Source: Inquilinus sp. Marseille-Q2685
GTDB lineage: Bacteria; Pseudomonadota; Alphaproteobacteria; DSM-16000; Inquilinaceae
Assembly: GCF_916619195.1 (NCBI RefSeq)
Contig: NZ_CAKAKL010000003.1
Location: 248,001-312,000 of the forward strand
Length of the DNA stretch: 64,000 nt
Direction: 5' to 3'
A program made the translations under genes and the position numbers. The notes beneath the pieces are model-generated. The model made no database searches. It was not told the origin of the DNA and was given only the letters and a program-made list of their open reading frames with translations. Below, piece by piece: positions 1,897 through 16,741 of the stretch; positions within the stretch are counted from its first letter, which is position 1, and each line of letters opens with the position of its first letter.

Positions 1897-2139
1897 ATGG
1901 AAGACATGCGGCAGGCGGTGGCTCGGAACCTCCGGCGTATTCGCGGAGATAGGTCACTGACCCAGGAGGAATTGGCGTTCCGGGCCGAGGTCAACCGCAG
2001 TTACATCAGCGACCTTGAGCAAGGGAAGTACAGCGCATCAGTCGAGATGCTGGGCAAGCTGGCCAAGGCGCTGAACGTCGCGCCCTCGGAATTCTTTGAA
2101 CCGCCGCCCAAGCGAACCAGGCGGCAGTCCAAGCCCTGA
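1897..2139 (+). CDS. XRE-family helix-turn-helix transcriptional regulator (80 aa)
   Basis: This compact single-domain DNA-binding protein carries the classic HTH_3/XRE fold. LTQEELAFRAEVNRSYISDLEQGK (residues about 20-43) holds the turn and the recognition helix, followed by the ASVEMLGKLAKALNVAPSEF helix typical of the family. The tail is short and basic (KRTRRQSKP), and there is no ligand or peptidase domain. Such proteins act as homodimeric repressors of nearby genes. It lies 77 bases upstream of a second XRE gene on the same strand and is divergent from the hypothetical gene to its left. Its target is unknown. Confidence 0.85.
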   Translation: MEDMRQAVARNLRRIRGDRSLTQEELAFRAEVNRSYISDLEQGKYSASVEMLGKLAKALNVAPSEFFEPPPKRTRRQSKP

Positions 2140-2215
2140 GTTCGGGGTTCCTCCCGTTCCTCATGTGATCCGTCCCCTCTGCGCCGTCCTGTCCGGACAA
2201 GAAGGGCCGAGAGCC

Positions 2216-2620: not shown

Positions 2621-2633
2621 AGCGCGAGCGGAC

Positions 2634-4448
2634 TCAGCCGGCCCGGGCCAAGGGATTCTCCGTGTCGACGAAGCTGTCGCCCGGGTGCTCGGCGACGCGC
2701 ATCCGGAGCAGGCTCTTGGCGCGCCAGGGGCGGCCGAGAAGCGCGCCCCGCTCGGCGTTCGCCGTCCCGATGTCGATCTCGTGCCCGAGGCCTGCGAACA
2801 CCTCGTCGATGACGGTCCTGACCACGCGCCAGCACCCTTCCGGACGTATTGCGCCCTGGCGTGCCAGGAGGGCGACGAGCTCGCGGACGTGGCTCTCGAA
2901 CACCGCGTGGGAGACCAGCTCCCGGAGCGCGCCGCGATCGGGGACCTCCATCTCGCGGGCGGCTGCGGGGACCGGATCGGACGGATCGGCCGATGCCAGC
3001 ACCCGGGCTCCGAAGTCGCGCGCGACGATCCGGCGAAGGGCGTCGTGCTCGTCGACCACGAGAAGCGTGTTCTGCTGGTGGGCTTCGAGCGCGATCCCGA
3101 AGAGGAGGGACAGGCGGAGGAACGCCGTCAGGGCGAGGCGGCAATAGTCGGCGAACGCCGACAGGGTGTTGCCGTTGGTCGCCTCCGCGAGCTCGATGAA
3201 CAGCGGTTTGCCGGTGACGGGCGAGGGCACGAAAAGCGCCGCGACCGGGATCGCGATCTCGCCAGGCCGGAGGACGTGCGACACCGGCCGGCGGAGAAGA
3301 GCGGACAGCATGCCGGCGCGCCCGTCCTCGGGATCGGCGGACAGGAAGCGGAGGCCGACCGGCTCCCCGAGGATCGCGAGGGCGCCGCGGAGCGTCTCGT
3401 CCCGTGCCAGGATGCCTTCAATGCGCCGGGTCATCCAGGGGCCGGCCGCGACCACCCCGGGCACGAGCTCGCGTCGCGAGCTCGTCACCTGGATCGAGAG
3501 CGGAAGCTTGAGCCAGGGTGCCCCGGCGGGCTCGGTCGGCGTCAGCGTCCGCAGTGAGAGCGTGGCCAGGCAGGGCGTTTCGGCTCCTTCCGGCCGGATG
3601 ATCTCCCCCCGGGCGATCTCATCGGCAAACCGCGACGTCACGATCTCCCGCCACTGCCACGGATGGACCGGCAGAGGAAGATAGTCTTCAGGAGCGGCGC
3701 CCAGGGCGCCGAGCCCCAGGCGCCAGCGCTTGATCGCGGCCGGGAAGTGCCGCGCCAGGAAGGCCCACGGGTCGAGATCGGAGGAGGCGGTCTCCAGGAC
3801 GAGGCGGTCCCGGCGAACGGCAAGCCAGGACACGTCGATCCCTGCGCCGAACTCGGGCGCATAGCGGATGCTGTCCTTGGCCGTGAAGCCGATCCTGGTC
3901 TTGGCGCATGGGTGGTGCGGGTGGCCGACGGCGGACCACTGCTCGAGGAACACCGACCACTCGGCCTCGGGCACCGAGGCGCGAACCCAGTCGATCAGCG
4001 TCGCGCAGCCGCGAATCCGCGCCGCCTCGGCGATGGCGCCGTTGCGTTCGGACCGGGTGGCGATCGAGAGGGCCTCGTTCGTGATGCTGTTCTCGATCTC
4101 CTCGCAGAGCCGGTCCCACCGCCCCTCCGGATGCAGGCCGCGAAGGATTTCGAGCAGGTCGAGCGGGTCCTCGATCCTCCGCGCCAATCGCGATCCCGGA
4201 GGAGAGATCGTCACGCGTTCGATCTCGCCATGGCGCCAGCCGACGAACGGCGGCCGGCATTTGAGCCGGATGGCGCCGGCCGGCGTCTCGACCGAAGCGC
4301 GGGCCGGCCGGCGGTCGTCGCCGGGATCGGGCGGGTTTGCGTCCAGGAGCCGCTCGGAGAGAGCGCAGCGCAGGAGGCGCTCGAAGCTGCGCCGGCGCGC
4401 CAGCGCCGTGGCGGCGTCCATCGACAACCGTTGGACAGGCGGCGTCAT
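2634..4448 (-). CDS. IucA/IucC-family (NIS) siderophore-type synthetase
   Basis: This is an ATP-dependent ligase of the NRPS-independent siderophore (NIS) synthetase superfamily. These enzymes adenylate a carboxylate, usually citrate or 2-oxoglutarate, and condense it with an amine or alcohol. The 604-residue length is normal. Family motifs appear in order: GHPHHPCAKTRIGF (175-188), LPVHPWQW (257-266), the substrate-binding SIQVTSSRR (318-326), EAHQQN (455-460) and RDFG (477-480). The ATG overlaps the stop of the upstream nucleotidyltransferase gene (ATGA), so it is the last cistron of a five-gene coupled operon. No siderophore exporter, TonB receptor or ornithine/lysine hydroxylase is nearby, so the product need not be a classical siderophore. 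The type (A, B or C) cannot be assigned by eye. Confidence 0.9.
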   Translation of the reverse strand: MTPPVQRLSMDAATALARRRSFERLLRCALSERLLDANPPDPGDDRRPARASVETPAGAIRLKCRPPFVGWRHGEIERVTISPPGSRLARRIEDPLDLLEILRGLHPEGRWDRLCEEIENSITNEALSIATRSERNGAIAEAARIRGCATLIDWVRASVPEAEWSVFLEQWSAVGHPHHPCAKTRIGFTAKDSIRYAPEFGAGIDVSWLAVRRDRLVLETASSDLDPWAFLARHFPAAIKRWRLGLGALGAAPEDYLPLPVHPWQWREIVTSRFADEIARGEIIRPEGAETPCLATLSLRTLTPTEPAGAPWLKLPLSIQVTSSRRELVPGVVAAGPWMTRRIEGILARDETLRGALAILGEPVGLRFLSADPEDGRAGMLSALLRRPVSHVLRPGEIAIPVAALFVPSPVTGKPLFIELAEATNGNTLSAFADYCRLALTAFLRLSLLFGIALEAHQQNTLLVVDEHDALRRIVARDFGARVLASADPSDPVPAAAREMEVPDRGALRELVSHAVFESHVRELVALLARQGAIRPEGCWRVVRTVIDEVFAGLGHEIDIGTANAERGALLGRPWRAKSLLRMRVAEHPGDSFVDTENPLARAG

Positions 4449-4984
4449 GGCCGTGTCCGCCGGAGCTGCGCCGGGACGTCCGCTCCCTGTCGGGCCGCGA
4501 CGACCGCCTGGACGCTGCGGCGCAAATCGTCGGGAAGGCGAGCGCCGGCCCGGAGCACGGCCGCGAGATCGTCGAGGTCCTTCCGGCGGCCGAACTCGCG
4601 TGCGGCGTTGACCTTCTCAGCGATCGCGTCTGAGACCCCGATCGCATATCCGAAGCTCGGGTGCCGCCGCGGCGTCGGATGCTCCGAAGCCGCGGCCACG
4701 ACCCAGTTCAGGACGACAGGGCCCTTCTCATGCCGAAACCGGGCCCAGCGTTCCGTCTCCAGCCAGCCGCTGCCGGCAAGCGCGAAGCCGTGATCCAGGA
4801 GCGTCGCGAGGTCGGCCCGCACGGCCTCCCAAGCCGCCCGGGCATCGGGGTGATGAAGATCGAGATCGCCCGGGCTGCGCGGCAGGAGATGGTGCAGCAC
4901 CGTGCTGCCGGCGACCCAGCTCCGCCGCGAGCGATGGCTCCGCAGCAGGGCGAGCGTGATCTCCTGTGTCACGGTCAGGCTCAT
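4445..4984 (-). CDS. AbiEii-like nucleotidyltransferase-fold protein (179 aa)
   Basis: The N-terminal part carries a minimal nucleotidyltransferase signature: VAGSTVLHHL, then DLDLHH, the Asp-x-Asp metal ligands. Near the C-terminus, AIAEKVNAAREFGRRKDLDD resembles the K...KDxxD helix of the AbiEii/AbiGii family. The frame extends upstream, but ATG 4984 has a strong ribosome site (GGAGGAG, 7 bases upstream) and its ATGA overlaps the stop of the preceding gene, which fixes the start. There is no AbiEi partner; instead it lies inside a biosynthetic operon, between the NDK-like gene and the IucA/IucC gene. Its job is therefore more likely transfer of a nucleotide to a small molecule or partner protein than abortive infection, but this is inference. 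Confidence 0.6.
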   Translation of the reverse strand: MSLTVTQEITLALLRSHRSRRSWVAGSTVLHHLLPRSPGDLDLHHPDARAAWEAVRADLATLLDHGFALAGSGWLETERWARFRHEKGPVVLNWVVAAASEHPTPRRHPSFGYAIGVSDAIAEKVNAAREFGRRKDLDDLAAVLRAGARLPDDLRRSVQAVVAARQGADVPAQLRRTRP

Positions 4985-5826
4985 GCGGTTCGCTCCTCCG
5001 AGGCGGCGCAGCATCCCTGCAGCCGGCGCAGCCACGGGCGGACGGCGTGAAGGCCGGCGCGCAGGACGAGCGTGTCCCAGTCCCCGACGTGCTCGTGAGA
5101 GATGTAGGCTTCGAGCGGTCCGCTCTCGCCTTCGAGATAGGCCCCGATGAGGCGCGCTGCGGCGGTGTCCGGGGCGGAGAGGGCGAGGCGCCGCAGCGCC
5201 CGGATGGAGCGTTGAGCGGTTTCGGCCGCGTCACCCGAGCGGGGCAGGACGAGGACGCGATGGGGTTCGCGGCCGAGAACGGGCGCGAGGATTCGCACCA
5301 GCGTCGGGAGCGCGGAATGCCGGGCCCAGCTCCAGGGGCGCCGGGAGGACGTATCTCTCGGGATCGGCCGGCCCGCAGGCAGGGCAGCGAGAAGCCGGCT
5401 CTCCCGAGCCATCACCTCCTCGTCGTCGCTGACATGAATGAGATTGGTCACCGGGTTGTCGCACCAGTGCCGGCCGCGGATCGTGTCGGGGGCGCTGTCC
5501 GCCGGTTGTGTCCGGCCCTTCACGGCCTGGAGGCGGACGAGCGCCTGGTCGCCCGCCCACCAGGTGATCCGGACGGGCCGGCCGGCATAGAGCGCCTCGA
5601 CCAGGGGCCAGTGCGGCCCGGCGGTGCCGCCCGACAGCGCGTAGAAGGCGCGGATCGTCGCCGCGTCGTGGACCCGGATCACCGAGGCCTGCAGCCGGAG
5701 CCCGGTCCGGGCGGCGATATCGCGGTCGATCCTGCGGCAGAGGCCCGAGACAAGGGCGTCGGGCGCCTGGACGCACATCGCGAGCCAGGGGCGGCCTGCG
5801 ACCGGCTGCTCGGCGGGCCTGCTCAC
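4981..5826 (-). CDS. Nucleoside-diphosphate-kinase-like protein with an extra C-terminal domain
   Basis: Residues about 17-145 align with NDK along most of their length: GPHWPLVEALYAGRPVRITW, then GRTQPADSAPDTIRGRH, then NLIHVSDDEE with the presumed phospho-histidine at His131. The usual N-terminal KPD motif is APD (residues 21-23), so the conserved active-site lysine is lost. True NDKs are about 140 residues; here a further 135 or so residues follow that I cannot place. The frame is open upstream only as a shadow of the kinase gene. The real start is GTG 5826, whose GTGA overlaps the kinase stop. Its own stop overlaps the next ATG. I infer phosphoryl transfer on, or binding of, a non-standard phosphorylated intermediate rather than housekeeping NTP synthesis. 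Confidence 0.75.
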   Translation of the reverse strand: MSRPAEQPVAGRPWLAMCVQAPDALVSGLCRRIDRDIAARTGLRLQASVIRVHDAATIRAFYALSGGTAGPHWPLVEALYAGRPVRITWWAGDQALVRLQAVKGRTQPADSAPDTIRGRHWCDNPVTNLIHVSDDEEVMARESRLLAALPAGRPIPRDTSSRRPWSWARHSALPTLVRILAPVLGREPHRVLVLPRSGDAAETAQRSIRALRRLALSAPDTAAARLIGAYLEGESGPLEAYISHEHVGDWDTLVLRAGLHAVRPWLRRLQGCCAASEERTA

Positions 5827-6551
5827 GGCGCCGGCCCCGGTCGTGCCGGGCGGATCAGTGTGCCGCGGCAGGGGCGCCGCTGCAGGTAGTCGACCACGCG
5901 GTCGGGGAAGCGCCCGTTCAGGACCGCGGCCTCGATGCCTCGAGCCGCGATGAAGGCCGCGGCGCAGGCATCGACCGAGGTGTGACCCATAGCGGCGAGG
6001 GCGGTCGCCTCGATGTCGGGGAGGAGATGCTCCGGCTCGCCGATCCGCCCCGCGGCGTAGACGCCGTCGACATCGGTGAGGACGGCATAGCGATCGGCCT
6101 CGAGGAGCCACGCCACCCAGGCGCCGACCGCGTCGGAGGTGACGTCCCAGCTCCGCTCGACCGGCTCGAGCGCGAAGATCAGGCCGGACGGGAGCAGGAT
6201 CGGAAGCCGACGCTCCGCGAGAGTGCCGAGGCATTCCCCGATCGTGGCGCAGGCTCGCGTGCCCGGGGCGATCGCGGGGTCGGCGAGCACGAGCCCTGTC
6301 TGGTCCTGGGCGAGCGCGCAGGCCCGGTGCGCCGTGTCGGGCGCGAGCGGCCGCTCCCGGTCGATCGTCTCGATTGCCTTGTCCGGCCGTCCGCCGCCCG
6401 GGACCACCAGAAGCCGATGGCCTTCAGCCGCGAGGCCGGCCAGAGCGCCGATCAGCCGGGCGGTCTCGTCGAGATTCCGCGTCAGGCTGCCGCCCGCCTT
6501 GAGGACGCAGTCAATGGCGGTACGGGTGAAACCAGGAAGAGCGGACGCCAT
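5823..6551 (-). CDS. Amino-acid-kinase-fold small-molecule kinase
   Basis: This 242-residue protein has the full AAK (aspartate/glutamate/uridylate kinase) fold. VLKAGGSL lies near the start (Lys18, Gly20-Gly21), VVPGGG in the phosphate-binding loop, WDVTSDAVGAWVAWLLEA in the middle, and then AVLTDVDGVY. It lacks the C-terminal ACT domains of aspartokinases and looks most like the small AAK members related to MfnE of methanofuran synthesis or other product-specific kinases. ATG 6551 lies one base after the stop of the aminotransferase gene, and its stop overlaps the GTG of the NDK-like gene. The substrate is unknown. An amine- or carboxyl-bearing product of the aminotransferase is the obvious guess. 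Confidence 0.82.
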   Translation of the reverse strand: MASALPGFTRTAIDCVLKAGGSLTRNLDETARLIGALAGLAAEGHRLLVVPGGGRPDKAIETIDRERPLAPDTAHRACALAQDQTGLVLADPAIAPGTRACATIGECLGTLAERRLPILLPSGLIFALEPVERSWDVTSDAVGAWVAWLLEADRYAVLTDVDGVYAAGRIGEPEHLLPDIEATALAAMGHTSVDACAAAFIAARGIEAAVLNGRFPDRVVDYLQRRPCRGTLIRPARPGPAP

Positions 6552-6552
6552 G

Positions 6553-7860
6553 TCAGCCCCGCCCGGCCTGAATCCGCCCATCGGAGTCTCCAGCGGCCTT
6601 GCGGATGTCGGGGGCGAGCTCGGGAAGGGCTGTCCACACTTTCTCGAAGGCTGCGATATAGGCCCGCATGACATCGGAGCCGTTCGGCGGCGCGATTTCG
6701 ACGATGTCGAACAGGCCGGCGAGCAACTTCTCGGTGTTCGGGAGAGGTGGGCGCTCGGCCTCTTCGGGCCAGAAGGGCAGATAGGCCCATGCCGGGCGGC
6801 GCAGCCAGATCCAGACCGGGACCCCTTCCTGCAGCAGAAGGTCGACGATGAAATCCCGCGTGGCGGGAACGGCAGGGAGGCCGAGCTCGCCCGCCTCGAG
6901 GAGGAGCGCGAAGTTGAGGTAGGAGTTCCGGGCTTCCGTGAAGCGGTGGAGGATACGCAGGCCCGGAAGGCCCGACAGCCCGATGCGGAGGATGGCCGCG
7001 TTCTCGGCGCGGGCGGCGAGCTGCTCGTCGAGGCCCGGCAGCCGGCTGAGCGCGACCGCGGCCGACAGCACGTTCGGCCGGTAGTTGAGCCCGTAGCTCA
7101 TCGGCGCGAAGACGCGGCCGCCGTCGCGGGCCGAGCTCGACAGTGAGACCCGGTCGACATGTTCGATCAGCCCGCCATTGGTGCCGCAGAGGAATCCGAG
7201 TTCGCCCGCACCGAGATGCTTGGCGCCGTTGCCGGACAGCGTAAAGGCATCGCTGTCGATCCGGCCCGCGTCCGGCTGCGGCCTCACGGCCCCGATCGCC
7301 TGGGCGCAATCGTCGACGATCGCAATGTCGAGCGTGCGCGCGGTCTGCCGCAGGCGCGGAACCTCGGAGACGTTGCCGAAGAGATGGGAGAGGAGGAGCA
7401 CGCCGATTTCGGGTGAGAGCTTGGCCAGCGCCTCGTTCTCGTCAATACAGCCGTCCTCGAGCGAGACATCGGCGAAGACCGGTTCCAGCCCCGCGAAGTG
7501 GATCGGACCCAGAGCGCCGGGCCAGTTGAGGGCCGGTGTCAGGATTTTCGGGCCATGCTCCCGGAGATAGTCGAGCGCGATGTGGATCGCGGCTGTCCCC
7601 GAGCCGACCGCGCGCACCTTGAGCCCGCCGCTCCACTGCCCGAGCGCATCTTCGAGCTGCGAGACGATCGGATGGTTCACGCGGTGATAGCGACCGCTGC
7701 GGGCGGCCTCGATCAGCGCGGAGACGTGGTCGAGCGAGGGTGCAGGCCAGCGCGCGATCCGCTCCGGGCTGAGGACGGGCCGGCCGCCATAGGCGGCCAG
7801 CGTCGCCTTCGGACTCGGGATGCGCGGTCTGGCCGGGCGCAGCGCAGCGTGTCGGGGCAC
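6553..7860 (-). CDS. DegT/DnrJ/EryC1/StrS-family PLP-dependent aminotransferase
   Basis: This fold-type I PLP enzyme is the first gene of the operon. It shows SGTAAIHIAL for phosphate binding (88-97), DDCAQAIGA for the PLP-ring aspartate (183-191) and SGNGAKHLGAGELGF with the presumed Schiff-base lysine Lys214. The length of 435 residues is normal for the family, which transaminates keto-sugars or other ketones, usually with glutamate or glutamine as donor. The frame opens at GTG 7893, but GTG 7860 has the better ribosome site (GGGAGG, 6-7 bases upstream), so I use it. A sigma70-like promoter lies 65-90 bases upstream. No nucleotide-sugar dehydratase is nearby, so a non-sugar substrate is quite possible. 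Confidence 0.88.
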   Translation of the reverse strand: MPRHAALRPARPRIPSPKATLAAYGGRPVLSPERIARWPAPSLDHVSALIEAARSGRYHRVNHPIVSQLEDALGQWSGGLKVRAVGSGTAAIHIALDYLREHGPKILTPALNWPGALGPIHFAGLEPVFADVSLEDGCIDENEALAKLSPEIGVLLLSHLFGNVSEVPRLRQTARTLDIAIVDDCAQAIGAVRPQPDAGRIDSDAFTLSGNGAKHLGAGELGFLCGTNGGLIEHVDRVSLSSSARDGGRVFAPMSYGLNYRPNVLSAAVALSRLPGLDEQLAARAENAAILRIGLSGLPGLRILHRFTEARNSYLNFALLLEAGELGLPAVPATRDFIVDLLLQEGVPVWIWLRRPAWAYLPFWPEEAERPPLPNTEKLLAGLFDIVEIAPPNGSDVMRAYIAAFEKVWTALPELAPDIRKAAGDSDGRIQAGRG

Positions 7861-7879
7861 GAGAGACCTCCCTGCGAGG

Positions 7880-7952
7880 CCGGGTGACAGCACCCGGGCG
7901 TCAGTATTGGTGGAGAGATCTCAAGTCTTATTTGGTGTAACAGAAGTGTCAA
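7880..7952 (-). promoter_or_regulatory. Promoter and leader hairpin of the aminotransferase-synthetase operon
   Basis: On the minus strand, TTGACA (7952-7947) and TAAGAC (7930-7925) are separated by 16 bases, a good sigma70-type pair in the only AT-rich stretch between the two clusters. The leader then contains CCGGGTG-ctgt-CACCCGG, a 7-bp stem with a 4-base loop (7897-7880), ending about 20 bases before the GTG start. The hairpin may tune translation or be the site of an RNA- or DNA-binding regulator. No known riboswitch is recognised. Confidence 0.5.
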
Positions 7953-8024
7953 AAAGCTTCTTCGAATATAATCAGGAAAACATTGTTATCTGTATTGTCG
8001 CGCTGGTGCCGGCCGCGGTTGCGA

Positions 8025-8744
8025 TCACGGCCCGGCGGCGGCCCGGTCGAGGACGAGGGTCGCATCCGGATGGAGCCGGAGCACCGATGCGGGACAGTCG
8101 GCGGAGACGGGCCCGAAGCGCGTCGCGCGGGCGGCGGGCTCTTTCGCGGGGCCGGTCGCGAGCAGCAGGAGGCGTCTCGCCTCGAGGATCGTGCCGATGC
8201 CCATCGTGATGCCGGCGCGCGGTGGCTCCATGCGTTGGGGCAGGGTGGCGCGGCCGTCCTCGCGGGTGGACCGGGCGAGGCGCACGACACGCGTGCGGGA
8301 GTCGAGCGGCGAGCCCGGCTCGTTGAAGGCGATGTGCCCGTTCCGGCCGAGCCCGAGGAGCTGCAGGTCGATTCCTCCGGCCGCCTGGATCCTTGCCTCG
8401 TACCGGCAGGCTTCCTCCGCAGGATCGATGCTGGCGCCGTCGGGCACGTGCAGCCTCTCGGGCGCGATCCGGAGCGGATCGGCCAGGCGCTGTTCGAGAT
8501 AGCTTCGGAAGGAGCCCGGATGGCCGGGGGCCAGCCCGACATATTCATCGAGCGCGAAGATCTCCACGCCGCTCCAGTCCGCGCCCTCCGATGCGGAGCG
8601 GGCGAGGCGGGCGTAGAGCGGCTCCATGGTCCGGCCGGTGGCGACGCCGAGGACGAGGCGCGGGCGGGCGGCCATGGCCGCGAGGATCTCGGCGGCCGCC
8701 GCGGCCGCCACCTCTCCGGCGTCGGCGAGGATTTCGATCTTCAT
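8025..8744 (-). CDS. nagB: Glucosamine-6-phosphate deaminase/isomerase family protein
   Basis: This 239-residue NagB/SugI-type protein carries LDEYVGL (active-site aspartate) and GLGRNGHIAFNEPGS (catalytic His/Glu region), and VLGVATGRT near the N-terminus for phosphate binding. NagB converts glucosamine-6-phosphate to fructose-6-phosphate and ammonia. It is the last gene of the minus-strand catabolic cluster, and its ATG overlaps the stop of the dehydrogenase gene. That places a phosphorylated amino sugar or a close analogue among the likely intermediates. No NagA or sugar kinase is present, so the physiological substrate may differ from classic NagB. Confidence 0.85.
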   Translation of the reverse strand: MKIEILADAGEVAAAAAAEILAAMAARPRLVLGVATGRTMEPLYARLARSASEGADWSGVEIFALDEYVGLAPGHPGSFRSYLEQRLADPLRIAPERLHVPDGASIDPAEEACRYEARIQAAGGIDLQLLGLGRNGHIAFNEPGSPLDSRTRVVRLARSTREDGRATLPQRMEPPRAGITMGIGTILEARRLLLLATGPAKEPAARATRFGPVSADCPASVLRLHPDATLVLDRAAAGP

Positions 8745-9790
8745 CGTGTGGCTGGCACCCAGGGCCCGTAGAGCGCCTCGACCTCGCGGCGCAGGCGGGC
8801 GACGAAGTCCGGCCCGATTTCGACGTCATGGGCGATCGAATGCCAAAGGCCGGCCTCGTGGACGAAGCGCCGGAGCCCGGCGAGCGCTCGGGCGACGTCG
8901 TCCCAGGTGACGCCCATCGCCTCGGGCCGGATGTCGAGGCCGATGTGATGAAAGGCCCGCAGCATTTCCTCGGCCCGGCTCTGGTGCAGGAGCGATCCGA
9001 TCGTGATGCCGAGGCAGACCGGGGGGCCGTGGATGAACTTGCGACCGGTGCCGAATTCGAGCGCATAGAAGAAGAAGTGGTCGATGCCCTCGATCGGCCG
9101 CGGGTTCCAGCCATGGCTGTGGTAGGTGGTGCCGCGGCTCAGGCCCTCGACGAGCACGCGGATGCCGGCATCCGTGAGGTCGCGGATGTCGTCGAGATGG
9201 GCGAGGACGCTGTTCACCGCGGCCTCGGCTTCGGCCGCCAACTCGGGGTCAAAGGGCCATTTGGGCTCGCAGCGGCCCCGGTCCGCGGCGTATTTCCAGT
9301 CGAGCACGCCCGTATGGGCGCAGAGGATGTCGCCGATGCCGGAGAGATTGAGCGCCCGCGGCGCGGCCCGGATCACGTCGAGGTCGATATAGACCGCCTC
9401 GGGCACGGCCCAGCCGACATAGCGCACGACACCATTGACGCGCACGCCGGCGCGCTGCCCCCAGGCGGCGTTCATGCTGAGGGCGGTCTGGACCTGGAAC
9501 AGCGGCCGGCGCCGGCGCCAGGCGAGATACTTGGCGGTGTCGATCGCCATGCCGCCGCCGAGCCCGACCACGGCGGCGAAGTCGGGCAGGATGCTGAGAT
9601 CCCGCAGCAGCTCCTCCTCGTCGACCGACCGGACGAAATACGGCTCGCACTCGGCGCCGTCGAACGCCGCCGCGAACAAGGGCCAGAGATCCTCCATGGT
9701 GACGACGAGGAACGGGCGGTGGACGAAATTCCGGAGCTCGCCGACGAGGTTGCGGCCGAGGACGGTCTGGAAGCCGTGGGCTGGGGGCAT
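8741..9790 (-). CDS. Glycerol-1-phosphate-dehydrogenase-like, metal-dependent alcohol dehydrogenase
   Basis: The fold is that of the iron/zinc alcohol dehydrogenase and dehydroquinate-synthase superfamily. VVGLGGGMAIDTAKY (NAD(P)-binding glycine turn), GIGDILCAHTGVLDW (metal-ligand aspartate), and histidines in SHGWNPRPIEG and FIHGPPVCLG match the glycerol-1-phosphate dehydrogenase (AraM/EgsA) branch. These enzymes interconvert dihydroxyacetone phosphate and sn-glycerol-1-phosphate or related polyol phosphates. The frame begins 4 codons earlier at a TTG; ATG 9790 with GGAG upstream is preferred (349 aa). In this cluster it probably oxidises a polyol-phosphate fragment released by the phosphodiesterase. 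Confidence 0.8.
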   Translation of the reverse strand: MPPAHGFQTVLGRNLVGELRNFVHRPFLVVTMEDLWPLFAAAFDGAECEPYFVRSVDEEELLRDLSILPDFAAVVGLGGGMAIDTAKYLAWRRRRPLFQVQTALSMNAAWGQRAGVRVNGVVRYVGWAVPEAVYIDLDVIRAAPRALNLSGIGDILCAHTGVLDWKYAADRGRCEPKWPFDPELAAEAEAAVNSVLAHLDDIRDLTDAGIRVLVEGLSRGTTYHSHGWNPRPIEGIDHFFFYALEFGTGRKFIHGPPVCLGITIGSLLHQSRAEEMLRAFHHIGLDIRPEAMGVTWDDVARALAGLRRFVHEAGLWHSIAHDVEIGPDFVARLRREVEALYGPWVPATR

Positions 9791-9820
9791 GCTGGTCTCC
9801 AACGAAAGAGCGCCGGCCGG

Positions 9821-10939
9821 TCAGTCGAGCGGCGCCGTCTCGGCGGGTGTGCCGTCGAGGCGGTAGAAGGTGAAGCGGCGATTGACGGCGGGAAGCGGAG
9901 CGATCTGCATCTCTCCGCGGGCGGGCTCCAGCAGCACCATGGCGACGGTCGCGGTGAGGTTGCCGGAAAGCCCCTTGCGCGGCGGCCGGCAGACCGACCA
10001 CGGGCTGCCGAACTCGTCGAACAGGGCGTCCCGGAGATCCGTGATGTCGAGCGGCCGCCCCGTCGCGAGCCGGGAGCGGACGCGTTCCTGGCGGTAGAGG
10101 CTGTCGGGCGTGGCATCGAGCCCGGTGTCGCGCAGGCGGGCAAGCGCCGCCGGCGAGAGCCAGTGATTGGCGTGGACCAGGATTCCGTCCTGGGGCTGCA
10201 GCGCGAAACTCTCGTCGGGGGCGCATTCGAGGCTGACCGCGAAGCCCTCGGCATGGCTCAGCATCATGTTGTTCGAGGCGGTCTTCGGGGTGGTCCGGAC
10301 GGCATGGATGGCGAGCGCCAGATCTGCGCTCTCGAGGACCCGGCGACGAATGAGCGGCAGCGGCACGCCCTCGGCCGTTCCGTCGCGGTCGCTTTCGAGA
10401 TTGTTGGCGGTCAGGCCGATGCCCGCGGCGTTAAGGCCCGAGCGGGCGAGGCCTCCCGCCTCGGTGAAGGTCAGGTAGTCGGGGCCGTGCTCCTGCCGAA
10501 TCCGGAGTACGACCGCGGTGTCGACGCACTCGACCTTCCAGTCCCAGTTCTGGCCGTGCAGAAGGCGGCCGTCGCGCGTCGCCTCGGGCAGGAGGACGGC
10601 TCCGGTGCAGCCGTCCGCCGCGGCCTCCGCGCCGCGCCGGGCCTGGCGCAGGATCTCCGTGCGGGCGTTGAGGAGGACGATGTCCTCGACCTCGACGCCC
10701 GCGCCCTCGGCGATGCCGCGGATCTCGGCGGAGTGGCCGTCGTCGAAGGCGGTGATCGCCCGGACCTGGCGGTGGGCAGCACGACGGATCGCCATGCGGT
10801 CGAGACCGAGCCGGGCCAACTGCTCCTGATAGTGGCCGAGGCCGCGGCGGATGCGATCGGCGGCACGGGCGCCGTAGCTTCGGCCGCGGGCTTCGGGCGG
10901 CCCGGAGAGGTCGATCAGGGGAAAGGGTTCGACCGTCAT
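9821..10939 (-). CDS. C45-family autoproteolytic acyltransferase/amidohydrolase
   Basis: Members of the isopenicillin-N acyltransferase-like (peptidase C45, Ntn hydrolase) family cut themselves just before a cysteine that becomes the N-terminal nucleophile. Here ADG-CTGAVLLPEA marks the cut before Cys111, and HGQNWDWKVE is the conserved segment that follows. The 372-residue length fits the family. It contains LNAAGIGLTANN and ends with a typical acidic tail. Bacterial members hydrolyse or transfer acyl groups on amides such as N-acyl amino compounds. Its ATG overlaps the HAD gene stop, so it belongs to the transporter operon. I infer that it removes an acyl group from the imported compound. 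Confidence 0.8.
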   Translation of the reverse strand: MTVEPFPLIDLSGPPEARGRSYGARAADRIRRGLGHYQEQLARLGLDRMAIRRAAHRQVRAITAFDDGHSAEIRGIAEGAGVEVEDIVLLNARTEILRQARRGAEAAADGCTGAVLLPEATRDGRLLHGQNWDWKVECVDTAVVLRIRQEHGPDYLTFTEAGGLARSGLNAAGIGLTANNLESDRDGTAEGVPLPLIRRRVLESADLALAIHAVRTTPKTASNNMMLSHAEGFAVSLECAPDESFALQPQDGILVHANHWLSPAALARLRDTGLDATPDSLYRQERVRSRLATGRPLDITDLRDALFDEFGSPWSVCRPPRKGLSGNLTATVAMVLLEPARGEMQIAPLPAVNRRFTFYRLDGTPAETAPLD

Positions 10940-11685
10940 CGCGCCCGTCCTCCCGTGGACGCCGCCCGTTCCGCCGGCGACCCGTCGCGGTGCAGGTCGA
11001 GGCGGTGGATGAGCTGCGGCAGGGCGGCCATATGGCTGAAGACGAGATCGGCGCCCGCCGTTGCCAGGCGTTCGCCGAGACCGACATCGGCATGGCCGCC
11101 GCCGGTGAAGCCGAAGACGGTCATGCCGGCGGCCTGCGCTGCGGTCACGCCGGCGACGCTGTCCTCGATGACGAGACAGTCGGCCGGAACGGCGGCCATC
11201 CGGTCGGCGGCATGGAGGAAGAGGTCCGGCGCCGGCTTCCCGCGCGCGACCATCTCGGCGCTGAAGATCCGGCCCATCAGGAGCCAGTCGAGCCCGGTGA
11301 CGAGAAGGGCGAGCCTGAGCCGGCCGAGCGCGCTCGACGACGCGACGCAGTAGGGGACGTCCAGGCGCCGAAGCGTCTCCTCGACCTCCGGCAGCGGCTC
11401 GAGCCGGGCGCGGTAGGCCTCGGCGATCCGGCGCTCGAGCCGGTCGGAGAAGCCGGCGGCGAGCGGCCGTGCCTGCTCATCGGCGAGGGTCCGGAACATG
11501 TCGGCGGCCGGAACGCCGGTGAAGCGGTCGAGGAGCTCGCGGGGGGTGATCGCGAAGCCGGCGGAGGCGAGGGCCTCGGCCTCGGCTTCCGCGATGATCG
11601 GCTCGCTGTCGACGAGGACGCCGTCGCAGTCGAAGATGACGAGGCGCGGCCACACCGGACCGTGCCCCCTGGCGATGGGACTCAT
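10936..11685 (-). CDS. HAD-superfamily hydrolase (beta-phosphoglucomutase/phosphatase type)
   Basis: The HAD motifs are present in order: VIFDCDGVLVDSE (motif I, nucleophile Asp), VASSSALGRL (motif II), ARGKPAPDLFLHA (motif III lysine) and VIEDSVAGVTAA (motif IV). The cap sits between motifs I and II, so it is subfamily I (phosphoglycolate phosphatase, beta-PGM or sugar-phosphate phosphatase). The protein is 249 residues. It is coupled to the acyltransferase by a 4-base overlap and follows the phosphodiesterase gene. It probably dephosphorylates or isomerises the sugar or polyol phosphate released in this pathway. Confidence 0.85.
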   Translation of the reverse strand: MSPIARGHGPVWPRLVIFDCDGVLVDSEPIIAEAEAEALASAGFAITPRELLDRFTGVPAADMFRTLADEQARPLAAGFSDRLERRIAEAYRARLEPLPEVEETLRRLDVPYCVASSSALGRLRLALLVTGLDWLLMGRIFSAEMVARGKPAPDLFLHAADRMAAVPADCLVIEDSVAGVTAAQAAGMTVFGFTGGGHADVGLGERLATAGADLVFSHMAALPQLIHRLDLHRDGSPAERAASTGGRAR

Positions 11686-11695: not shown

Positions 11696-12550
11696 TCAGT
11701 TGGTCGGGGGCGCCGACAGACGCCGGCCGGTCATGGCGTCGAAGCGCGGGGCGGGCGCCAGGAAGTCCCGCTGGTGCACGATCACGTCCTCGCCGTGGAG
11801 CAGGATGACACCGTAGGCGGGCGAGCCCTCGGCGAAGGTGACGTCGGGGTCGTCGAGCTCGAGGTCGATGTGCTGGCAGGTGCCGCGGATCGCCGAGAAG
11901 GAGAGGGAGCCCCAACGACCCCAGACCGGCAGATGGACGTGGCCGAAAAAGATATGGCGCACGCCGCCATGCTCACGGACAAGGTCGAGGAAGGCGTCGG
12001 GTGCCGTGAGGCTCATCTGCTCGAAATGCCGGACCCCGATCGACCGCGCCGGGTGATGCATGAAGACGTGGACCGGGCGGTCGGGAGCTTCCGCAAGCCG
12101 GGCGCCGATCCAGCCGAGGCGGGCGGGGCAGAGGACACCGGCCCCGCGGGCGCCGCGTTCGAGGGTATCGAGGAAGAGGAGCCGTCCGGCCGGAACGTCG
12201 AGCACGGATTGGACGAAGCCGGCCGGATCCAGCGGCGTCTCCGGGAAGGCTTCGCGGAAGGCTTGTCGGTCGTCGTGGTTGCCGAGCAGGAGCCGGACCG
12301 GCATCGGCAGGGGGCGAAGGATCTCGCGCAGCAATCCATAGGCCTGAAGCGCGCCGCGGTCGGCGAGGTCGCCGGTGAAGACGCAGAGCGCGGCGTCCGC
12401 GTGCTCGGCGACGACGCTGGCAACGCAGCGCGAGAGGCGCTCGGCCGGGTCGAGGTCGTAGAGGTGCTCGCCCGGGCCCACCAGGTGGGGGTCGGTGATC
12501 TGGATGATCTTCATGGGCGGAATGCGGTCTCGGGTGGCGGCAGGGTTCAT
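11696..12550 (-). CDS. Metallophosphodiesterase, CpdA/GpdQ type
   Basis: A calcineurin-like binuclear metal centre is complete: ITDPHL (Asp-x-His), VFTGDLADRG, LLGNHDDR, MHHPARSIG and FFGHVHLPVWG. This arrangement is that of class III cyclic-nucleotide and glycerophosphodiester phosphodiesterases (GpdQ). The length is 284 residues from ATG 12550, whose ATGA overlaps the stop of the binding-protein gene; a second ATG at 12514 (MKIIQITDP) is also possible. There is no signal peptide, so it acts in the cytoplasm. Sitting next to a UgpB-like importer, it most likely splits an imported phosphodiester. Confidence 0.85.
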   Translation of the reverse strand: MNPAATRDRIPPMKIIQITDPHLVGPGEHLYDLDPAERLSRCVASVVAEHADAALCVFTGDLADRGALQAYGLLREILRPLPMPVRLLLGNHDDRQAFREAFPETPLDPAGFVQSVLDVPAGRLLFLDTLERGARGAGVLCPARLGWIGARLAEAPDRPVHVFMHHPARSIGVRHFEQMSLTAPDAFLDLVREHGGVRHIFFGHVHLPVWGRWGSLSFSAIRGTCQHIDLELDDPDVTFAEGSPAYGVILLHGEDVIVHQRDFLAPAPRFDAMTGRRLSAPPTN

Positions 12551-13803
12551 CGGCGGGAGATCAGGCGCCGGGCGTCCGAGGCCATGCGGGCGAGCGCCTC
12601 GTCAGGCGAGAGGCGATCCTGGGCGAGGGCCGCCATCGCATCGAGCAGCGCCTGCGCGATCTCGACGCCGTTCGGTCCGGGCCAGGCGGTCCAAGGAACG
12701 GACACCGGGATCTGTTCGATGCTCGTCGACCAGTTCGGGTGCTCCCGGTAGAAGTCGCCGAGATGGTCCGGGCCGAGCGCCAGGCTGGTGACCGGGGTAT
12801 AGCCGGACTTCTGCACCATCAACGTCTGCGCCTCGGGGCCGCTCGCGAACTGCAGATAGGCCCAGGCCGCGGCACGCTTGTCCGGATCGTCGGTCAGGAT
12901 CACGCCCGCCATCCCCCCGGTCGGCAGGCGGCCGCGCCCGCGATCGGCCAGCGGCAGCCTCGCTGTCTTGAGGGGGAACCGGCCGCCGATATCGGTCTCC
13001 AGGCCGCGGACGCCGGAGGTGGAGGCGACGAGGATGCCGAGCTTGCCGGCGACGAATTGCTGCCGGGCGGACTCGTCCCCGATCGCCGGCTGTCCGCCTT
13101 CTTCGCGGAACCGGCGGAACAGGCGGAGTGCGGCGAGCCCCTCCGGGCCGTCGAAGGCGATGTCGGTCTCGTCCGGCGTGAGGAGCGAGCCGCCCTGGTT
13201 CAGGATCAGGGCCTGGGTGGTCCAGTCGTCAACGCCGAGCCCGTAGTACATGCCGTCGATGTCGGGGCCGAGGCCGTCGACCCTGTGGGCGAGGCCGATG
13301 AGCCCGTCCCAGTCGGCGGGGAAGGGCGCGTCGTCGCCGCCGGCCCGGGCGACGAGCTCGCCGTTGACGTAGACGATCGGCGTCGACATCACGAAGGGAA
13401 GGGCCACCTGCCGGCCCGCCGCCCGCCCGAGCGCGAGCACCGGATCGGTGAAGCCGCGTCCGCCCCAGTCGGGCGTGGCCGCGATCAGGGGGCCGAGATC
13501 CTGGGCGAGGCCGCGGTCGGCCAGGGCCCGGAGCATCTGGTAGCCGGCGAAAGTCACGTCCGGCAGCGAGCCGGTCATGCCCTGCCGCAGCAGGCTCTGG
13601 AAGGCCTCGTCGTAGCTCGATGCCGGCGCCTGGAAGCGGATCTTGATCTCCGGATGGCGCTCCATGAAGGCGGCGGCGATCGGCTCATGGAAGCGCTGAT
13701 GCGAGGGCCAGGCGTAGAAGACGGTGAGCTCGACGGGGGCGGCGGCGGCCGGGGTGGCGGCGAGCGCCGCCAGGACCGCGGATACGGTCAGGAATCGGTT
13801 CAT
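12547..13803 (-). CDS. Periplasmic substrate-binding protein, UgpB/sugar type
   Basis: A clear signal peptide (MNRFLTVSAVLAALAATPAAAAP) is followed by a family-1 solute-binding protein of about 395 residues. HPEIKIRFQAPASSYDEAFQ, LPFVMSTPIVYVNGEL and AAAWAYLQFASGPEAQTLM are typical of UgpB and maltose-type binding proteins. It delivers substrate to the two permeases and the ATPase encoded by the neighbouring genes. It follows the second permease gene after 18 bases. Similarity to UgpB fits the phosphodiesterase and glycerol-1-phosphate-dehydrogenase-like genes downstream, but the ligand itself cannot be read from sequence. Confidence 0.9.
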   Translation of the reverse strand: MNRFLTVSAVLAALAATPAAAAPVELTVFYAWPSHQRFHEPIAAAFMERHPEIKIRFQAPASSYDEAFQSLLRQGMTGSLPDVTFAGYQMLRALADRGLAQDLGPLIAATPDWGGRGFTDPVLALGRAAGRQVALPFVMSTPIVYVNGELVARAGGDDAPFPADWDGLIGLAHRVDGLGPDIDGMYYGLGVDDWTTQALILNQGGSLLTPDETDIAFDGPEGLAALRLFRRFREEGGQPAIGDESARQQFVAGKLGILVASTSGVRGLETDIGGRFPLKTARLPLADRGRGRLPTGGMAGVILTDDPDKRAAAWAYLQFASGPEAQTLMVQKSGYTPVTSLALGPDHLGDFYREHPNWSTSIEQIPVSVPWTAWPGPNGVEIAQALLDAMAALAQDRLSPDEALARMASDARRLISRR

Positions 13804-13821: not shown

Positions 13822-14658
13822 TTACCGGATGCCGGTGAAGGCCAGCCCCTGGACGAAGCGGCGCTGGGCGAAGAGGAAGGCGACGACGAGGGGGGCGGTG
13901 ATGATCACGCCGCCCGCCATCAAGGCGCCGACATTGCCGTCGACCCCGCCGCCCTCGCGGAAATAGGCGATCCCGAGCGGCGGGGTCATGAGCTCGGTCG
14001 AGGGGACGACCACCATCGGCCAGTAGAGGTCGTTCCAGTGCGCGACCACCGAGAAGATCGAGAAGGCGGCGACGGCTGGCCAGGCCGAAGGCAGGGCGAT
14101 GCGGAAGGCGATCGCGATCTCACCGAAGCCGTCGATCCGGGCAGCGTCGACGATCTCGTCGGGAAAGCGCCGGAACACCTGGCGGAAGAGGAAGATGGCG
14201 AAGGCCGAAGCGGCCCAGGGCAGGACCAGCGCCGGGAAGCTGTCGAGGAGCCCGAGCCGGGCGAGGCCGAGATAGAGCGGCAGCGCCGGGACCTGGACCG
14301 GGATCAGGAGCCCGAGGAGCACGAGCCCGAAGAGCGCTTCGCGTCCCCGGAAGTCGAGCTTCGCGAGCGCATAGCCGCATGGGATGGCGATCGCGAGCTG
14401 GAGCACGAGGATGCCGCCGCAGACCAGCACGCCGTTGACGAGGAAGCGCAGGAGCGGCGAGGCCGACAGCGCCTCGACATAGTTATGAAGCGTGAAGCGG
14501 GACGGCAGCAGCGCGAGCTCGCCCGTGAAGATCTCGGCGGCGGGCTTGAAGGAGGTCAGCGCCATCCAGAGGAAGGGCGCAAGCATGACAAGCGCACCGG
14601 TGAACAGCACGGCATGTGCGCAGAGTCCCCCGAGCGACGGCAGCAGGCGCCGGGTCAT
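13822..14658 (-). CDS. ABC transporter permease, UgpE/MalG type
   Basis: This inner-membrane permease has six predicted helices and 278 residues. It carries the EAA loop DAARIDGFGEIAIAFRIALP that contacts the ATPase, and TSFKPAAEIFTGELALLPSR in the first periplasmic loop, as in MalG and UgpE. The frame is open upstream to 14919 only as a shadow of the partner gene. ATG 14658 overlaps the stop of the first permease (ATGA) and begins MTRRLLPSLG. It forms the heterodimeric channel with the other permease. Confidence 0.9.
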   Translation of the reverse strand: MTRRLLPSLGGLCAHAVLFTGALVMLAPFLWMALTSFKPAAEIFTGELALLPSRFTLHNYVEALSASPLLRFLVNGVLVCGGILVLQLAIAIPCGYALAKLDFRGREALFGLVLLGLLIPVQVPALPLYLGLARLGLLDSFPALVLPWAASAFAIFLFRQVFRRFPDEIVDAARIDGFGEIAIAFRIALPSAWPAVAAFSIFSVVAHWNDLYWPMVVVPSTELMTPPLGIAYFREGGGVDGNVGALMAGGVIITAPLVVAFLFAQRRFVQGLAFTGIR

Positions 14659-15593
14659 TGGTAGTGCACCTTTCTGTCCATGAGGCGGGTCTGGGCGAGC
14701 GTCAGAGCCGTGGCGAGCGCCAGGAACACGACGGTGAGCGCCGAGGCGTAGCCGATCCGGAAGTAGCGGAAGCCCTCGAGATAGATCGCGTAGAGCAGCA
14801 CCTCTGTCGCCTTGTCGGGCCCGCCGCGGGTGAGCACGGCGACGGTGTCGAAGACCTGCAGGCCGCGGATCGCGGTGATGACGACGACGAACATCGTGGT
14901 GGGGCCGAGCATCGGCCAAGTGACGAGGCGGAACCGGTCGAGGCCGCGGGCGGCGCCGTCCACCGCGGCCGCGTCGTAGAGCTCGCGCGGGATCGATGCG
15001 AGCCCCGAGAGGAACAGCACCATGTTGAAGCCGGCGAGCTGCCAGATCCCGATCGCGGATAGCGTGAACATCGCGATGTCCGGATCCGCGAGGAAGCGCA
15101 GCTTCGGCTGGCCGACGGCCGCAAGAAGGAGGTTGGCGAGGCCGAAGCCCGGATGGAGCAGGACTTCCCAGGCGGTGGCGAGCGCGACCAGCGTCGCCGT
15201 CACCGGCAGGAAGAAGGCGACCCGATAGAAGCGGCGGAGCACCTGCCGCCCTTCGATCAGGAGCGCGGCGCCGAGGCCGACCGCGACCGATCCGGGGACG
15301 ACGACGGCGATGTAGACCCCGGTGTTGCCGAGCGCGCGGAGGACCCCGGGATCGGCGAAGAGCTCGGCATAGTTGTCGACGCCGATGAAGCGCCAGGATG
15401 CGGCCCCGAAGCCGTAATCGGTCAGCGAGAAGAGGATCACCAGCGCCGACGGCAGGATCAGCAGCACCAGCAGCAGCACCGCAGCAGGGCTCGCGAGGGT
15501 GAGGCCGGCCCTGGCGCGGCGCCGCCGGAGCTGGCCGGCGACGGCGGGCTCATCGGATCCCGCAGAGGAGAAGGGAAGGACGGTCATCGTCAT
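14655..15593 (-). CDS. ABC transporter permease, UgpA/MalF type
   Basis: The protein is 312 residues and starts MTMTVLPFSSAGSDEP at ATG 15593, overlapping the ATPase stop (ATGA). It has the basic cytoplasmic lead RRRRARAG, six membrane helices and the EAA motif YDAAAVDGAARGLDRFRLVT, followed by WPMLGPT as in carbohydrate uptake family 1 permeases. It works with the second permease downstream. The much longer open frame to 16616 is the antisense-like shadow of the ATPase gene and is not part of this protein. Confidence 0.9.
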   Translation of the reverse strand: MTMTVLPFSSAGSDEPAVAGQLRRRRARAGLTLASPAAVLLLVLLILPSALVILFSLTDYGFGAASWRFIGVDNYAELFADPGVLRALGNTGVYIAVVVPGSVAVGLGAALLIEGRQVLRRFYRVAFFLPVTATLVALATAWEVLLHPGFGLANLLLAAVGQPKLRFLADPDIAMFTLSAIGIWQLAGFNMVLFLSGLASIPRELYDAAAVDGAARGLDRFRLVTWPMLGPTTMFVVVITAIRGLQVFDTVAVLTRGGPDKATEVLLYAIYLEGFRYFRIGYASALTVVFLALATALTLAQTRLMDRKVHYQ

Positions 15594-16741
15594 GCCGCCT
15601 TCTGCTCGGCGGCCGCGATGCGGCGGCCGCTTTCGTCGAAGCACAGCGCGCGCTCCGGATCGGGCAGGATCCGGACGGCTTGGCCGCGCTCGATGCGGCC
15701 AAGCCGCTCGGCGTCGAGCCGGGCGACGACCAGCTCCGGGAAGCCCTCGACCGCGAGGTGGGCATAGCCATCGGCGCCGAGCCGCTCGACATGGCTGACG
15801 CTTGCGGCGAGGCCCTGCGGTGCCGACGCGTCGAGGAGGATGCACTCCTCGGGCCGGAAGGCGAGGGAGGCCCTGGTGCCGGCCGGCACGAGCCCGCGGA
15901 TCGCGAGGTGGGTGCCGAACGCCTCGACGGCGCCGGCGCCGGCGCCGGTGACCGGCAGCGTGTTCAGCTGCGGCTGGGCCATGAAGGCGGCGACATCGTG
16001 ATCGACAGGGGCTCGGTAGATGCCGGCCGGCGTGTCGAACTGGCGGACCTCCCCGTCCAGCATCACGGCGATCCGGTCGGACATGGTCATGGCCTCGGTC
16101 TGGTCGTGCGTGACATAGACGAAGGTTGCGCCGAGCCGCCGATGCAGGCGGGCGATCTCGGCGCGCATATGGACGCGGAGCTTGGCGTCGAGATTGGAGA
16201 GCGGCTCGTCCATCAGGAAGACGCGCGGGTGCCGGACGAGGGCCCGGCCGAGCGCGACCCGCTGCCTCTGCCCGCCGGAGAGCTGCCCCGGCTTGCGGTC
16301 GAGGAGAGCCGCGATGCCGAGGAGTTCGGCCACACCCGAGACCTCCTGGGCGATGTCGTCCCGGATCGCGCGCGCTCGGCCGAATGAGCCCATGACCGGC
16401 CAGCGCTGCCAGGCGGCCAAACGCCGGAGCCGGAGCGGGGTGGCGATGTTCTCCGCGACCGTCATGTGCGGGTAGAGGGCATAGTTCTGGAAGACCATGG
16501 CGATGTCGCGGCGGTCGGGGCCGAGCGCGTCGACCGGGCGGCCGCCGATGGCGACGTGGCCTGCGGTCTGGACGTCGAGCCCGGCGATGATCCTCAGAAG
16601 CGTCGACTTTCCGCATCCCGACGGTCCGACGAGCGTCAGGAACTCGCCCGGGCGGATGTCGAGCGAGATGCCGCGCAGCGCGGCCATTGGCCCGAAGCGC
16701 TTCTCGATCCTGGTCAAGGTGATTCCGGCTGGTTCCGACAT
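15590..16741 (-). CDS. ABC transporter ATPase, UgpC/MalK type
   Basis: All nucleotide-binding motifs are intact: GPSGCGKST (Walker A), VFQNYALYPHMTV (Q loop), LSGGQRQRVALGRAL (signature), VFLMDEPLSNLD (Walker B) and THDQTEAM (H loop). The C-terminal 130 residues form the MalK-type TOBE/OB regulatory domain. The length is 383 residues. It is the first gene of the cluster; ATG 16741 follows GGGGAGG on the minus strand. It energises uptake through the two downstream permeases. A 12-bp inverted repeat 40-80 bases upstream is the probable control site. Confidence 0.93.
   Translation of the reverse strand: MSEPAGITLTRIEKRFGPMAALRGISLDIRPGEFLTLVGPSGCGKSTLLRIIAGLDVQTAGHVAIGGRPVDALGPDRRDIAMVFQNYALYPHMTVAENIATPLRLRRLAAWQRWPVMGSFGRARAIRDDIAQEVSGVAELLGIAALLDRKPGQLSGGQRQRVALGRALVRHPRVFLMDEPLSNLDAKLRVHMRAEIARLHRRLGATFVYVTHDQTEAMTMSDRIAVMLDGEVRQFDTPAGIYRAPVDHDVAAFMAQPQLNTLPVTGAGAGAVEAFGTHLAIRGLVPAGTRASLAFRPEECILLDASAPQGLAASVSHVERLGADGYAHLAVEGFPELVVARLDAERLGRIERGQAVRILPDPERALCFDESGRRIAAAEQKAA

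Follow-up and report, generated by a model that had tools for sequence, protein, structure and literature searches.

A four-gene core beside uptake and degradation genes in Inquilinus and rhizobia: a candidate route to a sugar-like phosphodiester

Three described systems, those for xanthosan, the agrocinopines and the rhizopines, match in concept a gene cluster that we analysed in Inquilinus sp. Marseille-Q2685, and none of them shares its core genes as far as the available portions of the published texts show. The cluster lies in a stretch of 64,000 nucleotides (contig NZ_CAKAKL010000003.1, positions 248,001 to 312,000; hereafter the window, to which coordinates refer unless another locus is named). 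Here, genes for a DegT-type aminotransferase, an AAK-family kinase, an NDK-like protein and a small nucleotidyltransferase (NTase) form a core, which is followed by a gene for an NIS synthetase and preceded by genes for uptake and degradation. All reactions, substrates and the product are predicted from the genes present, from their conservation, linkage and predicted folds, from active-site residues and from one gene fusion, and on this basis we propose that a biosynthetic core stands beside a matching uptake-and-degradation operon and makes a sugar-like phosphodiester, a reading that we favour tentatively and that falls somewhat short of probable. A cluster of this kind is undescribed in open PMC full text among the matches listed, in agreement with a preliminary description of this DNA, which could match its predicted product class to no known siderophore or antibiotic pathway.

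Agrocinopines come from plant tumours, where an unrelated T-DNA synthase makes them, and we know of no AAK, NDK or NTase in their system. MosB of the rhizopine mos/moc system is a DegT-type protein, and to our knowledge that system involves no phosphodiester and has no kinase, NDK and NTase core. The likeness to agrocinopines lies in how the compound is handled, as a phosphodiester that is imported by a binding protein (AccA) with an ATP-binding cassette (ABC) transporter and cut by the phosphodiesterase AccF (PMC7356202, PMC4526662). Rhizopines are amino-cyclitols of the nodule whose synthesis is symbiotically regulated and paired with catabolism genes, although this catabolism proceeds via moc and inositol genes (PMC3538637, PMC5789663). 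The AvrBs2-XanT-XanP system of xanthosan, with adjacent genes, has been called a generation-uptake-utilization system, and its sugar phosphodiester is likewise made for later uptake and cut by a dedicated phosphodiesterase (PMC12807533). However, a single phosphodiesterase-derived enzyme synthesises it from UDP-galactose inside plant cells, it enters through a TonB-dependent transporter, XanP belongs to the 2H phosphoesterases, and no core family is mentioned in the available part of that text (PMC12807533). A likeness at the level of enzymes is offered by methylofuran synthesis, where a transaminase (MfnC) is followed by the AAK kinase MfnE, which is assumed to yield F1-PP, the diphosphate of an amino compound (PMC8141765). 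The core begins with the same pair of enzyme types, but NDK and NTase come next instead of MfnF.

The core enzymes and their predicted reactions

All five genes lie on the minus strand. The DegT/DnrJ/EryC1/StrS aminotransferase comes first (6553..7860; PF01041, 2.3e-43), followed by the AAK-family kinase, which is nearest to the phosphate-monoester kinase MfnE (5823..6551; PF00696, 1.9e-16), the NDK-like protein, an NDK domain with a helical C-terminal extension (4981..5826; PF00334, 7.3e-12), the NTase (4445..4984) and the NIS synthetase (2634..4448). The preliminary description had taken them as a five-gene operon behind one promoter. An open reading frame (ORF) check of the window shows that the five ORFs are real, sequence inspection bears out their joins (TGA-C-ATG, GTGA, ATGA and ATGA), and Pfam supports the assignments to DegT, AA_kinase, NDK and IucA_IucC with FhuF. 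The single promoter was not confirmed: a consensus scan of 7700-8300 gave no sigma-70 site, and by eye there is a weak TTGACA-16-TAAGAC before DegT (minus strand, 7952-7925). A longer GTG start of DegT at 7893 is possible, while the start at 7860 agrees with the relative at locus L039.

Neither the kinase nor the NDK-like protein looks like an ordinary nucleotide enzyme. Against NCBIfam the kinase scores highest with MfnE, at 107.9 bits, with UMP kinase next at 29 bits, and its profile gave 7qrh as the best solved match (113 bits) and archaeal-type uridylate kinases at 46 bits. An MfnE-like kinase that follows a transaminase would suit a furan-type one-carbon carrier akin to methanofuran, and MfnB (PF04476) is present in two of the eight core-bearing genomes searched, both Mesorhizobium. 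However, the kinase scores far below the curated MfnE cut-off of 300 bits, and we rejected a furan carrier, which we consider extremely improbable, on the absence of MfnB from the other six genomes, including all three of the window's genus.

The NDK-like protein has the NDK fold with its catalytic histidine, and Y52, R105, N115 and H118 are conserved in all of the 24 members aligned, out of 33 loci that have the gene. K12, F60 and R88 make nucleotide and phosphate contacts in ordinary NDKs. The first two are kept in none of the 24 members and R88 in two, whereas ordinary NDKs keep all of these residues (13/13; a comparison set drawn from 13 of 27 loci, L005-L031, the other 14 giving no motif match under the frame and position filter), so that by these residues the family departs from NDKs that act on nucleotides. 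In Sinorhizobium sp. 8-89 the kinase and the NDK-like protein are fused in one frame of 514 amino acids (L043 5070-6614), which supports consecutive steps. Two plasmid matches (H10, H11), in which the NDK part is annotated as 'aspartate kinase', suggest that S. numidicum has this fusion too.

The NTase matches no Pfam or NCBIfam model at E-values up to 1. Its AlphaFold model (pLDDT 91.4) has the Pol-beta/MNT nucleotidyltransferase fold and, together with the GS...DxD motif, places it in that superfamily; at fold level the earlier label 'AbiEii-like' was thus correct. A role as the AbiEii toxin of a toxin-antitoxin pair is not supported, since PF08843 matches one of 16 members (best E 0.12) and the gene's neighbours are those for the NDK-like protein and the NIS synthetase. 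Some 16 kb away from the core there is a pair of AbiEii (PF08843, 2.7e-50) and AbiEi (PF13338, 5.6e-9) genes (24331-26020, minus strand), and according to the model the core NTase and this AbiEii share the fold superfamily only.

Because the kinase and the NDK-like protein are unlike ordinary nucleotide enzymes, we propose a route X-P -> X-PP -> X-PPP -> X-P-O-Y. DegT would aminate a phosphorylated ketone or aldehyde of sugar type, yielding X-P, an amino phosphate that the MfnE-like kinase would convert to X-PP, and the NDK-like protein would form X-PPP via a phosphohistidine. The NTase would then treat X-PPP like a nucleoside triphosphate (NTP), moving X-P onto a hydroxyl to give the phosphodiester (X-P-O-Y) and pyrophosphate. 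By analogy, the sequence of kinase, NDK and NTase mirrors the order of UMP -> UTP -> transfer. X is predicted to be sugar-like and to carry an amine because the nearest solved relatives of DegT are 8gyh (104 bits), the sugar aminotransferase 7b0m (77 bits) and 2-deoxy-scyllo-inosose aminotransferases (72 bits); a sugar-like X is also suggested by the tailoring enzymes of related loci, which are near flavin adenine dinucleotide (FAD)-dependent glucose/fructose dehydrogenases and class III aminotransferases. We take 8gyh to be Fic25, which a literature search did not confirm. The mechanism is plausible and the chemistry may be new; we know of no characterised pathway in which a sugar-type triphosphate replaces an NTP as activated donor. 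The phosphorylated or nucleotidyl-transferred amine put forward in the preliminary description remains a sensible product class.

The proposed route is weakened by the fact that an NTase of the Pol-beta/MNT fold could use an ordinary NTP. In a nucleotide- or aminoglycoside-type bioactive compound, the core would build the amino-sugar part and the NTase would add an ordinary nucleoside monophosphate, as ANT(2'')-Ia and LnuA do on antibiotics; the kinase and NDK would supply or remodel nucleotides, and the adjoining transporter and phosphodiesterase would serve general scavenging. Taken as a whole we regard this as unlikely, given that the NDK-like family has lost K12, F60 and mostly R88, that the kinase is MfnE-like rather than UMP-kinase-like, that in many loci the core is accompanied by a linked phosphodiesterase gene (see below), and that the core holds no resistance or export gene.

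Conservation of the core and its tailoring genes

Related loci were collected by two routes. An NDK query gave 11 plasmid records (Rhizobium 5, Sinorhizobium 4, Roseibium 1, Neorhizobium 1), and the neighbourhoods of seven of them were inspected. Querying the genome collection with the AAK alignment via two peptide patterns gave at least 27 loci, mainly from Mesorhizobium, Sinorhizobium/Ensifer, Rhizobium and Neorhizobium, the others being from I. limosus, KBS0706, a Rhizobiales record and two metagenome-assembled genomes (MAGs; Kiloniellales and Hyphomicrobiales). With the window, and after the duplicates L039 and L040 were dropped, 35 loci were counted (27 AAK-found, seven NDK-found and the window itself). 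The kinase, NDK-like and NTase genes occur together in 33 of them; gene by gene, AAK is present in 35 (27 by construction), NDK in 33, NTase in 33 and DegT in 31. Free of this construction, NDK and NTase accompany 25 of the 27 AAK-found loci, and AAK accompanies all seven NDK-found ones. L065 and the truncated L066 are the loci without NDK and NTase.

Among 385 genomes of the class and 398 of the phylum (overlapping samples), an AAK family match above 300 bits was found in the window's own genome only, and 24 weaker AAK loci (42-89 bits) have no NDK or NTase match within about 3.4 kb of each. No relative of the NDK-like protein was confirmed in viral contigs, and Rfam gave no match in window positions 1-20000. 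The record that holds L041 and L039 (NZ_VCCH02000065.1) is labelled Mycobacterium sp. KBS0706, a label that looks wrong, since it is kin to the window's genus and has the locus.

The NIS synthetase behaves differently from the core. It has both domains expected of such enzymes (IucA_IucC, PF04183, 9.9e-62; FhuF, PF06276, 1.2e-24), each above cut-off, and its solved relatives are AsbB, DesD and IucC, yet its gene occurs in two of the 35 loci, those of the window and KBS0706 (L041), and is the sole match to the NIS protein in its own genome. Rhizobia, Roseibium, I. limosus DSM 16000 and MAGs have the core and no NIS gene in their fetched flanks. Because the core is widespread and the NIS gene is not, we take the conserved unit to be the core of four genes, around which tailoring genes can be exchanged. 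The genes do form one unit, as the preliminary description held, but this comprises the first four rather than all five. A gene order unique to this strain, which that description named as counting against its view, is disproved for the core and nearly true of the NIS gene.

This distribution bears on the view, also put forward in that description, that the locus makes an unusual phosphorylated or nucleotidylated siderophore-like product for iron. The operon does end in a complete protein with IucA/IucC and FhuF domains, whose best NCBIfam model is that of FslA from rhizoferrin synthesis (224.8 bits, cut-off 1000), itself an NIS enzyme with both domains. In contrast to the rhizoferrin system, the NIS gene here lies outside the conserved part. 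Of seven matches to the TonB receptor (PF00593) in the genome none falls in the window (C3:248001-312000), and the identified neighbours are genes for phosphodiester uptake and degradation. A siderophore locus was rejected as the leading explanation because the NIS gene is rare and the window lacks a TonB receptor; it is probably wrong to read the locus as one for iron scavenging, and we judge a product of that kind very unlikely. The ORFs scanned, a part of those in the window, include no siderophore exporter. The NIS synthetase looks instead like a decorating step that, in the clade of the window, would cap an amine with a carboxylate. That this is citrate is a guess, made because the protein scores best with the rhizoferrin FslA model.

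Other loci carry other candidate tailoring genes. In 11 of the 35 loci there is a GMC enzyme whose near relatives are glucose/fructose dehydrogenases (351 bits), often with a class III aminotransferase and in 11/11 cases together with a small partner gene. Matches to class III aminotransferases and to methyltransferases are hard to tell apart here, because the aminotransferase of L034 has an N-terminal methyltransferase domain. In L064 an NTase frame of 318 amino acids (11535-12488) spans the match to the GMC partner, a possible fusion. A phosphoenolpyruvate (PEP)-mutase-like gene lies near AAK in L036 (10135-10992) and also in L035, L052, L065 and L066, some of them Rhizobium loci. The motif of the L036 copy reads EGNSFPKMNS and differs from the PEP mutase motif, which we take to be EDKxxxKxNS. 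Phosphonate chemistry was rejected as a general reading, since this gene is rare (5/35 loci) and its active-site motif is altered.

The adjoining uptake-and-degradation operon

The frame of the preliminary description was too short: same-strand genes extend on the upstream side as far as about 16741, beyond which a regulator reaches 17788, and recycling-type genes lie beside the core in many relatives. Its statement that no exporter, receptor or hydroxylase is present fits the five genes but overlooked an adjoining UgpB-like ABC importer and a phosphodiesterase. Nearest to DegT, and like all that follow on the minus strand, are genes for a glucosamine-6-phosphate-deaminase-like (NagB-like) protein (8025..8744; PF01182, 4.3e-26; PRK00443.1-4, 236 bits, cut-off 326), a glycerol-1-phosphate-dehydrogenase-like (G1PDH-like) Fe-ADH_2 protein (8741..9802; PF13685, 3.9e-15; PRK00843, 100 bits, cut-off 413), a C45 autoproteolytic acyltransferase/hydrolase (9821..10939; NF040521, 5.4e-85, exceeding the cut-off) and a HAD phosphatase (10936..11685; PF00702, 6.7e-23). 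They are followed by a GpdQ-like metallophosphodiesterase (PDE; 11696..12550; PF00149, 7.9e-16), whose nearest solved structures are 2dxl (86 bits) and 2zo9 (85 bits), both titled 'Phosphohydrolase' and both presumably GpdQ, and by a UgpB-like substrate-binding protein (SBP; 12547..13803) that matches 6r1b UgpB (60 bits) and 4mfi UspB (58 bits). Further upstream are ABC permease 2 (13822..14664), ABC permease 1 (14655..15593) and the ABC ATPase (15590..16741), which match the annotated carbohydrate ABC permeases, sugar ABC permeases and ABC ATPases, respectively, of relatives in the same order, and then a MurR/RpiR regulator with a SIS domain (16943..17788; PF01418, 3.7e-18; PF01380, 1.4e-14). 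A GntR/FCD regulator is a possible further member (17837..18517; PF00392, 1.5e-12), with a weak match of 37% to the GntR protein of rhizobial loci over 18245-18436. Genes further along suggest a conjugative element beside the locus, with signal-peptidase-like, SLT transglycosylase, DUF3363 and T2SSE-type ATPase proteins at 20574-24249 (+) and 28882-29862 (+).

An uptake transporter and a phosphodiesterase linked to synthesis genes, as expected of a phosphodiester opine system of the agrocinopine or xanthosan type, are both found here, though the module also occurs elsewhere without the core. The PDE gene lies inside the fetched flank in 23 of the 35 core loci (24 counting the separate contig of KBS0706) and is usually accompanied by the UgpB-like ABC transporter, the HAD phosphatase and the MurR/RpiR regulator; flank counts are 22 for MurR, 19 for SBP, 18 for HAD and one for C45. 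Since close PDE relatives are few per genome, this linkage looks well above chance. Under the proposed pathway, the UgpB-like ABC transporter would re-import the product, the C45 hydrolase would undo the amide, the PDE would cut the phosphodiester and the HAD protein would remove the phosphate, while the NagB-like deaminase would remove the amine and the G1PDH-like enzyme would handle a polyol phosphate.

The C45 gene is found in the recycling operon of both loci with an NIS gene, in G005 (KBS0706) across a broken contig. There, an orthologue of 81% identity lies at the end of contig C109 beside HAD, PDE and SBP, and is cut by the contig end. The other 33 loci show none in their fetched flanks, some of which stop short of the whole module. 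The simplest link is that the C45 protein may hydrolyse the bond made by the NIS synthetase. It was probably recruited to the locus, because each of the six genomes of the genus has a paralogue, 54-56% identical, at another place. In the genome of the window, this second C45 hydrolase is at G000:C3:122232-123326 and is 55% identical to the copy at the locus.

The phosphodiester might alternatively be a polar head group or a polysaccharide substituent of the cell envelope, with the adjoining operon recycling turnover products. UgpB- and GpdQ-like proteins are typical of glycerophosphodiester recycling and are both present, as is the G1PDH-like gene in three of the 35 loci. Against this, neither the core nor the identified tailoring genes include a glycosyltransferase or a lipid-linked or membrane enzyme, in a flank annotation that was non-exhaustive, and we consider envelope decoration quite unlikely.

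Possible symbiotic control and implications

In five of 27 loci (L034, L043, L044, L048 and L049) a sigma-54 site with a NifA-type upstream activating sequence (UAS) precedes DegT. The criterion was at least 10 of 12 matches within the 700 bases before DegT, with TGT-N10-ACA within 200 bases. This combination was found in four of 1322 other half-overlapping plus-strand windows and, with 200 shuffles made for each locus, in no more than 0.5% of them. The five loci amount to three designs, because L048 does not differ from L049 in this region and L034 resembles L044. Given these sites, the product may be rhizopine-like in the five rhizobial loci. Sigma-54-type sites also occur elsewhere in several loci (for example L036, L037, L043, L057, L065 and L066). 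A 10-of-12 site with a UAS precedes the GntR gene of L053, and L054 has the same site without the UAS. A scan of 36 loci with a Nod-box consensus gave a Nod-box-like sequence on a Sinorhizobium americanum plasmid (L033 20986, minus strand; 32 of 40 informative positions), which is not before the core, 28/40 in L057 and L062, and values below 27 in the remaining 33.

Several observations weigh against a core that makes a phosphodiester for recovery by its own operon. The other 22 of the 27 loci lack the sigma-54 and UAS combination, including ten methyltransferase-type Mesorhizobium loci, S. meliloti 4H41, Roseibium, L041 and L042, and a separate scan of window positions 1-20000 found no site. 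Of the core genes, DegT is a fragment in L033 and lies at the very edge of loci L038 and L066, there is no exporter in the core, and the 35-locus counts are not independent, because several Mesorhizobium loci are closely alike. No PDE gene lies in the fetched flank of 12 loci; some of these flanks stop at a contig edge, which is not obviously so for L036, L038, L046, L047, L057 and L065. The NagB-like and G1PDH-like genes are confined to three loci (the window, L041 and L051). Conversely, the sister genome G001 has MurR, ABC, SBP, PDE and HAD genes and yet no AAK match, and G009 and G016 have adjoining SBP and PDE genes without the core NDK. Such genomes may be consumers of a product made by others, or the module may be a general phosphodiester scavenging operon. 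The complete module of G001 lies in L089 (G001:C1:278001-296000) at 4307-11081.

In its ecological role, the product would resemble an opine of the phosphodiester kind or a rhizopine. In a wider form of this proposal, the core would be a nucleotide-free copy of the UMP-UDP-UTP-transfer route, in which a PyrH/MfnE-like kinase, a repurposed NDK and a nucleotidyltransferase act on an amino-sugar phosphate, and a platform that each strain decorates (with a citryl-type amide, a second amine, a methyl or an acetyl group) and pairs with a matched recycling operon, and its product would be a nodule-induced private nutrient in legume symbionts; this form we hold to be doubtful. The comparison across relatives corrects the iron reading, as the siderophore-type enzyme is here an apparent decorating step. 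If the proposed route is true, a sugar-type triphosphate would serve as an activated donor and NDK chemistry would extend outside nucleotides. The core would also give a genetic handle on a class of phosphodiesters from rhizobia and their relatives, so that private nutrients or signals of these symbionts would become testable.

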